Source: Cyclobacteriaceae bacterium (GTDB lineage: Bacteria > Bacteroidota > Bacteroidia > Cytophagales > Cyclobacteriaceae). Taken from it: a stretch of 45,967 nt of DNA. The notes under the pieces were generated by a model. That model saw only the letters and a program-made list of their open reading frames with translations, was not told the origin of the DNA and ran no database searches. This document shows, in pieces, positions 28,287-33,327 of the stretch (its first letter is position 1; each line of letters opens with the position of its first letter). The position numbers were made by a program, and so were the translations under genes. The stretch is from assembly GCA_947457095.1 (NCBI GenBank), contig CANGUK010000006.1:1-45967 (forward strand). The letters are read 5' to 3'.

Positions 28287-28294
28287 TATCTTTG
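28287..28294 (+). promoter_or_regulatory. putative -7 box (TATCTTTG) for tRNA-like RNA 1
   Basis: exact TAnnTTTG, 32 nt upstream of the tRNA-like acceptor stem, in a non-coding region. Confidence 0.55.
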
Positions 28295-28325: not shown

Positions 28326-28430
28326 TGTAAGAAAAAAATTTGGTGTTTTTTGCCAAATTTCAGGGAAAGAAAACAAAAGCAGTGATTATCTGTTAGTTAT
28401 CTTGAAGGTTCGATTCCTTCTCTTACAACA
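28326..28430 (+). ncRNA. tRNA-like RNA 1: acceptor stem, T-arm and an enlarged D-domain (9-bp hairpin)
   Basis: acceptor TGTAAGA (28326-28332) / TCTTACA (28421-28427); T-arm GAAGG-TTCGATT-CCTTC (28404-28420); hairpin AAATTTGGT-GTTTTTT-GCCAAATTT (28336-28360); 5-bp/7-nt arm AGCAG-TGATTAT-CTGTT (28378-28394); terminator downstream. Confidence 0.65.
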
Positions 28431-28460
28431 GGTTATTTTGGGTTTATTGTTAATTGACTA

Positions 28461-28490
28461 AAACCATGAAAATTATTTCATGGTTTTTTT
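28461..28490 (+). terminator. intrinsic terminator of tRNA-like RNA 1 unit
   Basis: AAACCATGAAA-ATTA-TTTCATGGTTTTTTT. Confidence 0.85.
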
Positions 28491-28685: not shown

Positions 28686-28693
28686 TACATTTG
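28686..28693 (+). promoter_or_regulatory. putative -7 box (TACATTTG) for tRNA-like RNA 2
   Basis: exact TAnnTTTG, preceded by a G-free A-rich 60-nt tract. Confidence 0.55.
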
Positions 28694-28750: not shown

Positions 28751-28890
28751 TGTAGGGTGTTGAAATTGGCAGACAAGCCCTCCTGTCTCGGGGGTGGGGA
28801 TCCTGGTCATTAGATCGGAACGGGATAAAGCGTGTTTCAAAAGTTCATGCCTAACTGCCGCGTGGAGGTTCGAATCCTTCCCCTACAGCA
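28751..28890 (+). ncRNA. tRNA-like RNA 2: full cloverleaf elements with GUC anticodon-like loop and a 69-nt variable domain
   Basis: acceptor TGTAGGG/CCCTACA; U8; D-arm TTG-AAATTGGCAGA-CAA; anticodon arm CCCTC-CTGTCTC-GGGGG; variable 28795-28863; T-arm GGAGG-TTCGAAT-CCTTC; G73; no encoded CCA. Confidence 0.75.
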
Positions 28891-28892
28891 AC

Positions 28893-28920
28893 AAAAAAGC
28901 AGCCATTTGGCTGCTTTTTT
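28893..28920 (+). terminator. intrinsic terminator of tRNA-like RNA 2 unit
   Basis: AAAAAAGCAGCC-ATTT-GGCTGCTTTTTT. Confidence 0.9.
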
Positions 28921-28965: not shown

Positions 28966-31900
28966 ATGGTACCCAAGTCTACTGCACAGGAAAAACCCAA
29001 AAGGTCTGCTTCCAGAAAAAAATGGCTTAGGATCCTCGGGGTAAGTTTACTTTCTCTACTTACCCTAGAATTTGCGCTTTATTTTGGCTCAAACCTGTTT
29101 TTAGGGAACTTACTCAGAAAAAAGCTGAATGATTCATTCAATGGAGTCTATGAACTAGATTTCAATCGCGTACACCTTTCCCTAATTCGTCGAGGAATTT
29201 TTTTAGACGGCATTGTCATGAAGCCCGTGCATCCAGAAAAGGCTTCTGCCAAACAGGTCTTATTTGAATTGACCTTAGATCAATTAGCATTTAAAGGACT
29301 TTGGTATGGGCTTTGGGATCAAGAACTCGATGTTCGAGAGATCAGTCTTGATCGTCCTAATTTCCAAGTATTAGCATCCACCCCTCCATCTTCTCTGGAT
29401 AAAGATGCCGGTAGCAGAACCACCACCAGGTCTCCTGTTTTTCTTTTGGAAAATGAATTGAAGAAGAGCATTGCAAATCTTCCTTTTTCCGGTGTAAAGG
29501 TGAGCACTCTAGTTGTTGATCATGCCCAAGTATTTTTTCTAAATTTTTTGAGTAAAAATGAACTCCTCGCAAAAAATGCCTCATTTAGAGCAGTGGATAT
29601 GCATTGGCTGCCAAATAGAACTTGGAATACTCCCTTCAACGCCCGTGGTTTTGAGTTTGAATTGGAGGATGTCAGCTTCCCACTTCCCGATGGAGTTCAC
29701 AGAATCACCTCGGACTTGGTTTTACTTTCTTCCTTGGAAGGTACCATGGACCTGCAGAAATTCAGAATAATTCCTGAGCGTACACAAACAAGTGATTCCT
29801 ACTATTCTCTAGAATTGGAAGAACTTCATGTGCAGCATGTCAATCTGAACCAGGCATTTAGAACTTCCACACTTGACCTCGAAGAGCTTATTCTCGAGGC
29901 CCCGCGAATTGAAGTGATTCAATCTGCTTCAAGGCCTTCTTCTTCATCCACCATCGAAGGGGACTTGCATGCATTTATTCGCGGAAAACTCAAACGCTTT
30001 TCAATCAAAGAATTAACCATCCGAGACGCAAGCTTCTTGCGAAAAGAAAAGGAGGATTCGCTTCGAAATCGAATTCAATTGGAGCAGCTTGACCTAAAAA
30101 TGGTGGATTTTTACCTGGGCGATGATTCCCTTCGAAAGCGGGATCAATTTTTTTATGGATCAGATGCCTCCCTAGAAATAGGACGAGCGGAACTCTTTTT
30201 GGGGGATGGAGTTCACGTCTTGAAAGGGGAAAAACTGGAAGCCTCGACCTTTAAAAACGAATTAGCTGGAACCAATATTCAATTAATTCCGAGAGATTAT
30301 GAAACACTAAAAGCCCGCAATCATCCTAGCTATCAAATCGATCTACAGGAATTGACCTTTGAAAATGTAGACCTAAAAAAGTGGTATCGCCAAGGGGAAC
30401 TAGAGATTGAAACCTTGACCATGCAAAAGCCCCAGCTAGCGATTAGACAAACCAAAACCCCCGCAGCCAATCAAGAAAACGAGACCTTCATTTCTCTACT
30501 CGCAGGCCTTGTCAATGAAGTAGCCATTCAAACCTTCCAAGTTGAGGAGGGAACCTTAGTTTTGAATGAGGAGTCTGGGGCAAAAAGCACCGACTTGGAC
30601 TTGGGTAAGTTTAGTCTAGAGTTGGAAAAGTTTCGTCTGCTACCCAATCGTTACCTTCCTGTTCAAGAGCAATTTCAGTTTGAGGAAGTCTTGCTCACGC
30701 TATTCGATTACCGCTTAAAGCTCCGAGACAACCTGCATGAATTTTTGGCTCAGGAGCTTTCTATCGATTCCAAAAAGGAGATTCTCAAAATAAAGAATCT
30801 GAGTATTCATCCTGCAGAATCGGCCCAAGTGCGAGAGCAGTTGCAAACTCTTGGTAAAACTACTGCAGTAGATTTTTCAATTCCCAATTTTCAAGCCAAG
30901 GGAATTGGCTTGAAAGAAGCCTTGTTTGATCAAAAATTGAGACTGAATCATCTTGAATTAGATGCTCCCACGTTCCATTGGTCTACCTACCGATCCAAGG
31001 AAAGTAAAGCCTCTGAAAATGCATTACGCTCTGCTGAGGATTTAAAAGTCCTTTTACTTGGATATTTTGAGGACATTCAGGTAGACTCAGTTACCATTTC
31101 TAATGCCAAAATTCACTATGAAAATAAAGTGAAGGAAGCGGTAACTCAATTTGAGGAGAACCAACTGTTTTTTAAGCTCAAGAATTTTGCTCTTCACAAA
31201 AATGACACGCTCAACGAGGGACGAGCACTGTTTTCTGATGAAGTCAATTTGACCTTCAATTCGTACTCATTTAGCCTCGCTGGAGGAAAATATGTAGTGG
31301 ATACAGATTACCTCAACTACAACTCCCGAACGCGCACCTTGGATTTTGAAAACTTAAGGTTACAGCCTGGAAAAGTAGGAAATCAGCGCCTAGCCTTGGG
31401 CTTTAACTTTCCCAAAGTGGCCCTTCGTGGAGTCAATGTGGAGCAATTCATTTTTGACAATGTTCTCAACCTTCAGAAGCTTGAAATCAATGGGGGAGAA
31501 ATTGCCCTAGGTGTAGATCGACAGGTACAAGCGTCGAGCAAGAGTGCCTTGCGCTCAAGAAATTTAGCTCTACAACGTACCGTGGAACGGGTACATATTG
31601 ACACCATTTCCACATCCAATGCGACCTTGCAACTCAACTATTTGGATCAAACCCAGTCTAAAAAAGCCATAAAAACAGGCTTTGGTCTCAACCTCACCCA
31701 GTTTGATTTGGATAGCCTTCGCGTACGGACTCAAGACCTTTCCAAGACCTATCAAGGAGTCAATTTAGGCTTAAGTAACTTTGAATTTGCCCTTCCGGAC
31801 AGTGTGCATACGCTAAAGTTTGATGCATTTGGCTTTGGGGATGAGGAGGACGTGGTCTTTTCAGGATTAAGCATCCATCCTAAAAATCAGATTGGAACGA

Positions 31901-33327
31901 ATGGAAAGCCTGTATTCGATGGAAAAATTGAGCGGGTAGTTTTCAAGAAGAATAGTCTGTTGGATATTTTCACCAGCAAAAAGGTGGACCTACGGGAAGT
32001 GCGCGTTCAAAATCCCATTTTTTCCATTCACTTGGATAGTTTGCCTACCCCTATAACGTCCCGATCCGGAAGTTTCAAAAAAAACCCAGAGCGGGTAATT
32101 CACTCCATTCTCGTAGAGGATTTGATTTTGGAAAACGGGAAGTTTGATTTCTTTAGAAAAGGAGGAGCAGCTATTTCCAATCTAAGTTTTCCAAAAGTAG
32201 ATGGGCGACTGGAAGAATTGGGAATTGACCTTTTGGGGATGGAAAAGCTTCCTACTTGGAAGGATTTGCTCACCAAAACTAAATCCCTGAGTTTGGCGAA
32301 CTACCAGGCCTACGTTCAAGACAGTGCCTACCTTTTACAGGTAGACAGTCTTCAGTTTTTGGACAAAAGACTGCGGGTGAGTGGCATCCAATATGCTCCC
32401 CTCTTTGGGACTTATGGATATTTGAATAGCTTGCCATTTCAGCAGGAGGCGGTAAGTGCTCGTGTGGACAAACTCGACATTCGTGAAATTGAAACCCAAG
32501 AATTAGTCCAAAATGGATTGTTCAAAGGAGAATCTCTGCAAGTAGATGGGGCTAAGGTTACGCTATTCCGAGATAAGCGAAAGCCAATGGATCCGCTTGG
32601 CTACAAGCCTCTTCCACAGTTCTTGATGGAGCATGCGCCGGTCAATCTTGACCTTGCATCCCTCCAATTTAGTGATAGTCGTTTGCAGTATTGGGAATTT
32701 GGAGAAAAGTCCGCCCTGCCAGGAAGCATCGCTTTTCAGAAGATTCAACTAGATGCGAGCCCATTTTACCTTCGTAAACAAGGGGAACATTATCCAGTAT
32801 CCTCCTTTAAGTTGGGAATCTCCGGACAAGTAAGCGATAGCAGTCAGCTGAATGTAACTAGTCAGCTCTACTTTGAGAAAGACTATCCCATGGATGTAGA
32901 AGTAAGCTTCGTGCGTTTTGCCTTTGCAGAAGCGGAAGATTTACTTTCCAAGACTGCCTTTGTGAGACCCTTAGGAGGTGGAGTGACGCAGGGTACTTGG
33001 CAGTTTCGCTTGGATGAGCAGGAGGCCCGGGGAAGCATGGCCTTGGGCTATACGGGCTTAAAGATCCAGTTTTTGGATAGTTTGACTCTTGGCCCAGGCA
33101 AAGGGAAATTGAAGTTCTATACCTATTTTGCCAACCTTTGGGCCAAAAAATCCAATCCAGGTGCAGGTTCTAATTCTTTACGCAAACGGGAAATCTACCG
33201 CTTGCGAGACACCCAAAGATCCATGGTCAATGCCTGGTGGAAAGCGACCTATGTAGGGCTAAAAAGTTCTATTGGATTTGGAAAGGTTAAGGCACCAAAA
33301 AATCTTCGAAAAGAAGATGAGTACTAG
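28966..33327 (+). CDS. giant AsmA/TamB-like repeat protein (hypothetical, N-terminal TM anchor)
   Basis: 1453 aa; N-terminal TM LRILGVSLLSLLTLEFALYFGSNLFLG; seven recurring segments of the type LDLEELILEAPRIEV at about 178-aa spacing. Confidence 0.8.
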   Translation: MVPKSTAQEKPKRSASRKKWLRILGVSLLSLLTLEFALYFGSNLFLGNLLRKKLNDSFNGVYELDFNRVHLSLIRRGIFLDGIVMKPVHPEKASAKQVLFELTLDQLAFKGLWYGLWDQELDVREISLDRPNFQVLASTPPSSLDKDAGSRTTTRSPVFLLENELKKSIANLPFSGVKVSTLVVDHAQVFFLNFLSKNELLAKNASFRAVDMHWLPNRTWNTPFNARGFEFELEDVSFPLPDGVHRITSDLVLLSSLEGTMDLQKFRIIPERTQTSDSYYSLELEELHVQHVNLNQAFRTSTLDLEELILEAPRIEVIQSASRPSSSSTIEGDLHAFIRGKLKRFSIKELTIRDASFLRKEKEDSLRNRIQLEQLDLKMVDFYLGDDSLRKRDQFFYGSDASLEIGRAELFLGDGVHVLKGEKLEASTFKNELAGTNIQLIPRDYETLKARNHPSYQIDLQELTFENVDLKKWYRQGELEIETLTMQKPQLAIRQTKTPAANQENETFISLLAGLVNEVAIQTFQVEEGTLVLNEESGAKSTDLDLGKFSLELEKFRLLPNRYLPVQEQFQFEEVLLTLFDYRLKLRDNLHEFLAQELSIDSKKEILKIKNLSIHPAESAQVREQLQTLGKTTAVDFSIPNFQAKGIGLKEALFDQKLRLNHLELDAPTFHWSTYRSKESKASENALRSAEDLKVLLLGYFEDIQVDSVTISNAKIHYENKVKEAVTQFEENQLFFKLKNFALHKNDTLNEGRALFSDEVNLTFNSYSFSLAGGKYVVDTDYLNYNSRTRTLDFENLRLQPGKVGNQRLALGFNFPKVALRGVNVEQFIFDNVLNLQKLEINGGEIALGVDRQVQASSKSALRSRNLALQRTVERVHIDTISTSNATLQLNYLDQTQSKKAIKTGFGLNLTQFDLDSLRVRTQDLSKTYQGVNLGLSNFEFALPDSVHTLKFDAFGFGDEEDVVFSGLSIHPKNQIGTNGKPVFDGKIERVVFKKNSLLDIFTSKKVDLREVRVQNPIFSIHLDSLPTPITSRSGSFKKNPERVIHSILVEDLILENGKFDFFRKGGAAISNLSFPKVDGRLEELGIDLLGMEKLPTWKDLLTKTKSLSLANYQAYVQDSAYLLQVDSLQFLDKRLRVSGIQYAPLFGTYGYLNSLPFQQEAVSARVDKLDIREIETQELVQNGLFKGESLQVDGAKVTLFRDKRKPMDPLGYKPLPQFLMEHAPVNLDLASLQFSDSRLQYWEFGEKSALPGSIAFQKIQLDASPFYLRKQGEHYPVSSFKLGISGQVSDSSQLNVTSQLYFEKDYPMDVEVSFVRFAFAEAEDLLSKTAFVRPLGGGVTQGTWQFRLDEQEARGSMALGYTGLKIQFLDSLTLGPGKGKLKFYTYFANLWAKKSNPGAGSNSLRKREIYRLRDTQRSMVNAWWKATYVGLKSSIGFGKVKAPKNLRKEDEY

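Follow-up and report, generated by a model that had tools for sequence, protein, structure and literature searches.

A putative tRNA-derived regulatory RNA family in Bacteroidota and their phages

Results

Two tRNA-like RNAs at the locus

The window (the whole stretch of 45,967 nucleotides analysed, from a Cyclobacteriaceae bacterium) encodes two tRNA-like RNAs on its forward strand: a reduced sister RNA, copy A (28326-28430), and copy B, whose predicted mature body from nucleotide 1 to G73 spans 28751-28888 and was delimited by sequence, homologues and covariation. Both have as neighbors a gene for an RluA-type pseudouridine synthase and, on the other side, the gene for a 1453-amino-acid protein (28966-33327, downstream of the RNA), which gave no Pfam match.

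Each RNA carries a -7 box of the Bacteroidota type (consensus TAnnTTTG) and an intrinsic terminator. In copy B these are TACATTTG at 28686-28693 and GCAGCC-ATTT-GGCTGC-T6 at 28899-28920. The acceptor 5' strand TGTAGGG (28751-28757, with U1:A72) pairs at 7/7 positions with the 3' strand (28881-28887), which is followed by G73 (28888) and an encoded C74 (28889); C75 and A76 are not encoded. A Leu-type D-arm, TTG-AAATTGGCAGA-CAA (28760-28776), and an arm at the anticodon position (28778-28794) with the loop CTGTCTC (28783-28789) are followed by an oversized variable domain of 69 nt (28795-28863) and the T-arm GGAGG-TTCGAAT-CCTTC (28864-28880). In the variable domain, the hairpin TGGTC-ATTA-GATCG (28804-28817) precedes two internal-loop motifs that are conserved in the alignment of relatives, GATAAA on the 5' side (28824-28829) and CTAAC on the 3' side (28851-28855), and these enclose the hairpin GCGTG-n11-CATGC (28830-28850). 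All the parts named in a preliminary description of this locus were found in place when the sequence was checked. Of the two hairpins it had proposed in the variable domain, GCGTG/CATGC coincides with a terminal hairpin found family-wide by alignment and covariation, but TGGTC/GATCG is a local insertion seen only in reduced-genome relatives within Algoriphagus and is missing from most relatives.

Standard searches did not recover copy B. ARAGORN called zero tRNAs in the window, and an Rfam 15 scan of the window gave nothing at gathering score. When Rfam was run in E-value mode, tRNA-Sec matched copy A only, at 23.6 bits; the matches to CrcZ, STnc370, rimP and others were dismissed as chance, their scores being far under the gathering cut-offs. 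Folded as a single sequence, copy B was no more stable than its shuffles (z = -0.14), and the case for this RNA therefore depends on comparison. A covariance model, R1, built from an alignment of 37 diverse copies, scores copy B at 117.9 bits; one V-stem position of copy B, as of its clade, does not follow the consensus pairing.

Copy A (fold z = -3.09) keeps an acceptor stem, TGTAAGA/TCTTACA, and a T-arm, GAAGG-TTCGATT-CCTTC, and its D- and anticodon arms have been replaced. Its -7 element is TATCTTTG (28287-28294). Downstream lie a 38-nt trailer, GGTTATTTTGGGTTTATTGTTAATTGACTAAAACCATG (28431-28468), which is near-invariant among relatives, and an intrinsic terminator (28464-28490). At the equivalent site in larger-genome Algoriphagus relatives copy A is full-length. 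In the reduced-genome species it has been cut to the acceptor stem, the T-arm and a new hairpin, and the trailer and terminator are near-invariant. The trailer could possibly be a small RNA in its own right. A wider version of the trailer motif was found in 15/340 host copies and 0/118 viral copies, and the idea of a family-wide trailer was rejected in favor of one limited to a lineage. In one Algoriphagus genome copy A is split into two parts (L024, about 1060-1075; G008:C1:4804708-4804835) that lie on either side of the record ends, with about 22 kb between them; the right edge cuts into the 3' end of this tRNA-like gene, which looks as though it served an integrating element as attachment site.

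Distribution among hosts and viruses

Among 61 genomes of the same genus, Algoriphagus, BLAST found the RNA in 59. The larger-genome species normally have two copies on the same strand with about 550 nt between them, in the order A then B. At the family level, 125/150 genomes and 76/87 genera carried the RNA, each genome having between one and eight copies, sometimes in tandem. A phylum-wide scan with R1 yielded long matches (>105 nt and >75 bits, with a few weaker exceptions) within the same order, in further families of the class and in a single family beyond it. R1 also matched sequences of 84-88 nt, as long as ordinary type II tRNAs, at 50-60 bits. When 60 genomes from seven families, picked for already having matches, were searched with R1, all 60 gave one or more matches at E<=1e-15. 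When named genomes were scanned with a sequence pattern, the matches listed included Cytophagales, Chitinophagales, Saprospirales, Sphingobacteriales and one record labelled Ignavibacteriales. We are highly confident that 28751-28890 is one copy of a real, conserved RNA family.

No match was found in plasmid records, and annotated phages gave one distant match, in an uncultured 636-kb phage record. The IMG/VR collection contained more than 120 viral contigs with the RNA, and most of the viral copies tested with R1 scored 60-124 bits. Genes for a portal, terminase, DNA polymerase or helicase were found near the RNA in the viral loci checked. Some viral copies lie inside tRNA arrays; in 6/12 loci, an ordinary tRNA was absent from the scanned stretch. 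The R1 matches of 84-88 nt that ARAGORN identified in phage arrays include tRNA-Leu genes.

Short viral forms (92-97 nt) that lack the large V domain were also observed (L268, L270, L276, L284, L289 and L340). Two short viral forms were called tRNA-Asp(GTC) by ARAGORN, one of them within a tRNA array. It is possible that the short forms are ancestral or decoding, and perhaps mis-annotated in phage genomes.

A covarying cloverleaf of the tRNA-Leu type

In the alignment of 37 sequences, 99.2% of cells pair, and 91 cells show double changes, compared to 30 in shuffles and 2-13 in slid controls. In an alignment of 94 sequences that includes viral and distant copies, pairing is 97.5% and there are 405 double-change cells, compared to 97 in shuffled and 31-79 in slid controls. 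Since this second alignment was fitted to the R1 model, the 37-sequence count is the cleaner of the two. Double changes occur in all six helices of the 94 sequences. They extend to all seven acceptor pairs, the V-stem pairs, the T-arm and the D-stem, where pair 10:25 is A-U, U-A or G-C and pair 11:24 is U-A or C-G. None of the 94 sequences deviates from U8, G9, G73 and C74, and U1:A72 is kept in 89 of the 91 distinct rows. The family V-arm begins with a 4-bp stem, continues through an internal loop that carries (G)GAUAAA and CUAAC, and ends in a hairpin whose sequence varies; two bases that stay unpaired (GU) separate this arm from the T-arm.

As judged by this comparison of sequences, a full tRNA-Leu-type cloverleaf is under selection for its structure. 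The preliminary description had viewed the RNA as a chimera. It is indeed unusual, conserved and tRNA-like, but the tRNA-Leu genes matched by R1 and the unpaired GU indicate a body that is of tRNA-Leu type throughout. The D-arm and the attachment of the V-arm are those of tRNA-Leu. On the other hand, position 73 is G in 94/94 sequences where the tRNA-Leu genes of the host have A73, and the loop, YNGUCUC, holds no Leu anticodon.

Two other structural proposals were rejected. A pairing of the D-loop with the anticodon loop through AGACA/TGTCT is broken in families that have GGCAGCC. A group I or other intron, which the length had suggested, is not compatible with an insert in the V region and a cloverleaf that covaries as a whole.

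The anticodon-position loop and the 3' end

The preliminary description had read the loop as that of an Asp-type RNA. In the 94-sequence set, position 33 is T in 73 sequences, C in 10, G in 7 and A in 4. Position 34 varies in a few copies and positions 35-38 (UCUC) never vary. Because many of the 94 sequences were fetched with a pattern that fixes GTCTC, a fairer view of position 34 comes from the host copies that were recovered with the loop left free; these have CTGTCTC (most), CGGTCTC, CTTTCTC, CTATCTC and CCGTCTC. The family thus lacks both a conserved U33 and a conserved GUC anticodon. It also lacks the short variable loop of a type I body, being type II and Leu-like with a 69-nt V domain in copy B. 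A complete Algoriphagus genome possesses two ordinary tRNA-Asp(GUC) genes. An Asp-decoding tRNA is therefore unlikely, the Asp-type reading is not supported, and we are fairly confident that the RNA is not an ordinary decoding tRNA.

At the 3' end, G73 and C74 were present in 94/94 sequences and the next base was free. In most tRNA genes of the host itself, the encoded sequence includes the discriminator and C and leaves out the final CA. As C74 is encoded in both, a tRNA-like 3' maturation is likely, and the sequences suggest processing by RNase Z and CCA addition as for the host tRNAs.

Palindromes in the variable arm

The apical loop of the V-arm is a palindrome in many relatives, and this palindrome is absent from copy B of the window. 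For the viral copies we counted perfect palindromes in the 18 nt after a conserved GACCAC, in 51 distinct segments. Palindromes of at least 6 nt occurred in 45/51 segments compared to 11.3 expected from shuffles, those of at least 8 nt in 36/51 (2.7 expected) and those of at least 10 nt in 25/51 (0.7 expected), counts in which related viral copies are included and are not independent. These palindromes, 6-12 nt long, occupy a fixed place in the V-arm and comprise many different words, such that the self-complementarity is constant. Host copies with a simple hairpin showed a weaker excess (14/86 with at least 8 nt, compared to 3.8 expected), mostly of the GAGCTC type and also TGATCA and TGTACA. 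Host copies with the GACCAC motif showed no palindrome excess.

Self-complementary palindromes whose sequence changes, as sought for a homodimeric kissing loop, were found in phage copies and not in that of the window. A precedent comes from the OLE and GOLLD RNAs, in which palindrome swaps supported intermolecular kissing loops (PMC12286853). By this precedent the swapping palindromes strongly suggest that the phage forms homodimerize through self-complementary V-arm sequences; a cause at the DNA level is possible.

Palindromes were also seen elsewhere. In some viral copies (L257, L264, L267 and L294) the D-loop contains inserted palindromes, among them GCGTACGC and GATTGACACGCGTGTCAATC. Several Algoriphagus copies (L014, L017, L018 and L021) contain a REP-like palindrome, (C)CCGATAGCTATCGGG or close variants, inside the variable domain, with the rest intact.

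A divergent Lrp/AsnC regulator

At each of the nine distant loci inspected, a gene of about 155 codons lies directly upstream and is divergently oriented, and in 9/9 cases the product is a regulator of the Lrp/AsnC family. An earlier candidate for this neighbor, smpB, was thereby discarded. When one of these Lrp proteins was searched in the 60 genomes, each had one clear ortholog (E 1e-53 to 1e-97), with second matches that were mostly far weaker. The RNA was divergent to this ortholog in 42/60 genomes and in six of the seven families, its nearest copy being 122-226 bp away. The genes flanking the pair differ between groups. The pairing has been lost from the genus of the window itself and from family f8. 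In genomes that lack the RNA, the best Lrp homologues were at most 50% identical or absent, and no tRNA-like element was seen beside them at the loci inspected; this comparison is confounded by distance.

The frequent divergent pairing of the RNA with one Lrp/AsnC regulator emerges from genome comparison, and control of the RNA by this regulator may be inferred from it. A conserved, promoter-like motif close to TTTGAATTATTTGCAAA is found about 75 nt upstream of host copies (e.g., 59/136 compared to 9.6 expected) with no enrichment in viral copies. We did not adopt it as an Lrp site because it overlaps the -33 promoter box.

Discussion

On the basis of these comparisons we file the RNA as a candidate new tRNA-derived regulatory family of Bacteroidota and their phages. 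No earlier description was found in the open-access journal literature searched.

Our leading explanation, to which we give somewhat less than an even chance, is that 28751-28890 encodes a tRNA-derived, non-decoding regulatory RNA that is matured like a tRNA, is probably dimeric at least in phages, is regulated by an Lrp-type protein and acts on a partner that binds tRNA. The RNA would have its own promoter, and RNase P and RNase Z would trim the transcript before CCA is added. Amino-acid supply would set its production via the neighboring Lrp-type regulator. As a non-decoding tRNA mimic, and probably a dimer, it could occupy a tRNA-binding protein or the translation machinery, and translation would thereby be tuned to the nutrient state. 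Phages might carry the RNA to take over or protect this host function. Against this explanation count the loss of the Lrp pair in the genus of the window and in family f8, the lack of a palindrome in copy B, the modest palindrome excess in hosts, and the short phage forms called tRNA-Asp, which could mean that some members decode. The preliminary description had allowed for a non-ribosomal or regulatory role, and this fits best as a reading of a conserved tRNA-like RNA.

It could be speculated further that this is a new class of homodimeric tRNA, phylum-scale and phage-borne, that never decodes and that uses V-arm self-pairing to couple Lrp-type amino-acid sensing to translation, e.g., as a molecule that bridges or blocks ribosomes or a synthetase. 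We consider this bolder version somewhat unlikely.

One alternative is that the RNA is a dedicated aminoacyl donor off the ribosome, passing its amino acid to a lipid, a peptide or a cell-wall enzyme. The acceptor stem, G73 and C74 are among its best conserved parts, its loop is unlike a decoding loop and a regulator of an amino-acid-responsive type adjoins it. However, no transferase gene is consistently near the RNA, it has G73 instead of the A73 of host tRNA-Leu, and a cell-wall donor would be hard to explain in phages, where this is sometimes the sole tRNA-like gene. We regard a donor role as unlikely.

Another possibility, which we judge quite unlikely, is a processing platform: the tRNA-like fold would bring in RNase P and RNase Z, and the RNA that functions would be the downstream trailer. 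This would account for the copy A of reduced-genome Algoriphagus, in which the trailer and terminator persist near-invariant next to little more than the acceptor and T-arm, but most copies have no trailer, among them copy B and every viral copy examined, and the conserved loop and V domain would be left unexplained.

A decoding tRNA active at Asp codons is distinctly unlikely. Variable positions 33 and 34 next to an invariant U37 and C38 are the reverse of a decoding loop, a relative has normal tRNA-Asp, the base of the V-arm is Leu-type and a ubiquitous Asp-to-Ser missense would be costly. The prospect of serine arises because SerRS recognizes a long V-arm with G73, and allo-tRNAs place Ser at non-Ser codons (PMC7609411). 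A decoding role would be consistent with the complete tRNA architecture, with G34-U35-C36 in most copies, with G73 and with the short phage forms, assigned to tRNA-Asp(GUC) by ARAGORN and in one case set in a tRNA array.

It is very unlikely, finally, that the RNA serves phages as a decoy or in counter-defence, or is what tRNA-cutting defence systems attack, the host copies having been derived from phage copies or matched to them. Such a role is suggested by the more than 120 viral contigs, some with this RNA as the only tRNA-like gene in the scanned stretch, and by the finding that phage tRNAs can evade tRNA-targeting defences (PMC11555353); broad host presence and the conserved Lrp pairing, however, point to a housekeeping function in the host first. 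A decayed tRNA or attachment-site remnant, to which the roughly 22-kb insertion that appears to use the copy A 3' end in one relative (L024) might be referred, can practically be dismissed, as strong covariation and near-invariant segments across families indicate purifying selection and not decay. Neither decay nor a lack of covarying homologues, either of which would have undone the preliminary description, was borne out.

The RNA appears to be widespread yet unlisted in large parts of Bacteroidota (Cytophagales, Chitinophagales, Saprospirales and Sphingobacteriales, with an occurrence labelled Ignavibacteriales); it has been overlooked since its variable arm leads tRNA finders to reject it. 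If the leading explanation is true, a non-decoding, self-pairing relative of tRNA joins amino-acid sensing to translation, and phages find it worth carrying. The neighboring regulator is a clear test subject, and cultivable hosts include Pedobacter, Chitinophaga and Algoriphagus.

Among known RNAs, bacterial tRNA-Leu (type II) is alike in U8 and G9, the 3-bp D-stem, the GGCAGAC D-loop, the 5-bp anticodon stem, the long V-arm and the two unpaired bases before the T-stem. The family differs in having G73 not A73, U1:A72, the loop YNGUCUC and a V-arm of several times the length, which has motifs in its internal loop and is often palindromic at its tip. Bacterial Y RNAs (YrlA) are noncoding RNAs that mimic tRNA. 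In contrast to YrlA, this family has a tRNA-like acceptor stem and 3' end and no Rfam match at gathering score, and we rejected membership since the Ro/TROVE protein was missing in 14 of the 15 genomes searched and present in one. tmRNA likewise combines a tRNA-like acceptor and T-arm with the lack of a usual decoding loop, but the family keeps its D-arm and anticodon-position arm, and a separate tmRNA in 14/14 high-completeness genomes led us to reject this assignment also.

The tRNA-Other of Bacillus cereus, a pseudo-tRNA that is not used in translation, is found in extended transcripts and has a regulatory role (PMC3399842), is similar as a tRNA-like RNA outside translation; it flanks a genomic island, whereas the family described here is phylum-scale with covariation, Lrp pairing and phage copies. 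The GOLLD, ROOL and OLE RNAs are homo-oligomeric with kissing loops, and GOLLD and ROOL are often near tRNA islands (PMC12286853). They share with this family a bacterial or phage origin but are much larger and not tRNA-shaped. Allo-tRNAs are also non-canonical tRNA genes with long V-arms (PMC7609411); they do decode, and their acceptor branches are 8/4 or 9/3, whereas the family has a 7/5 branch and a loop unlike a decoding one.
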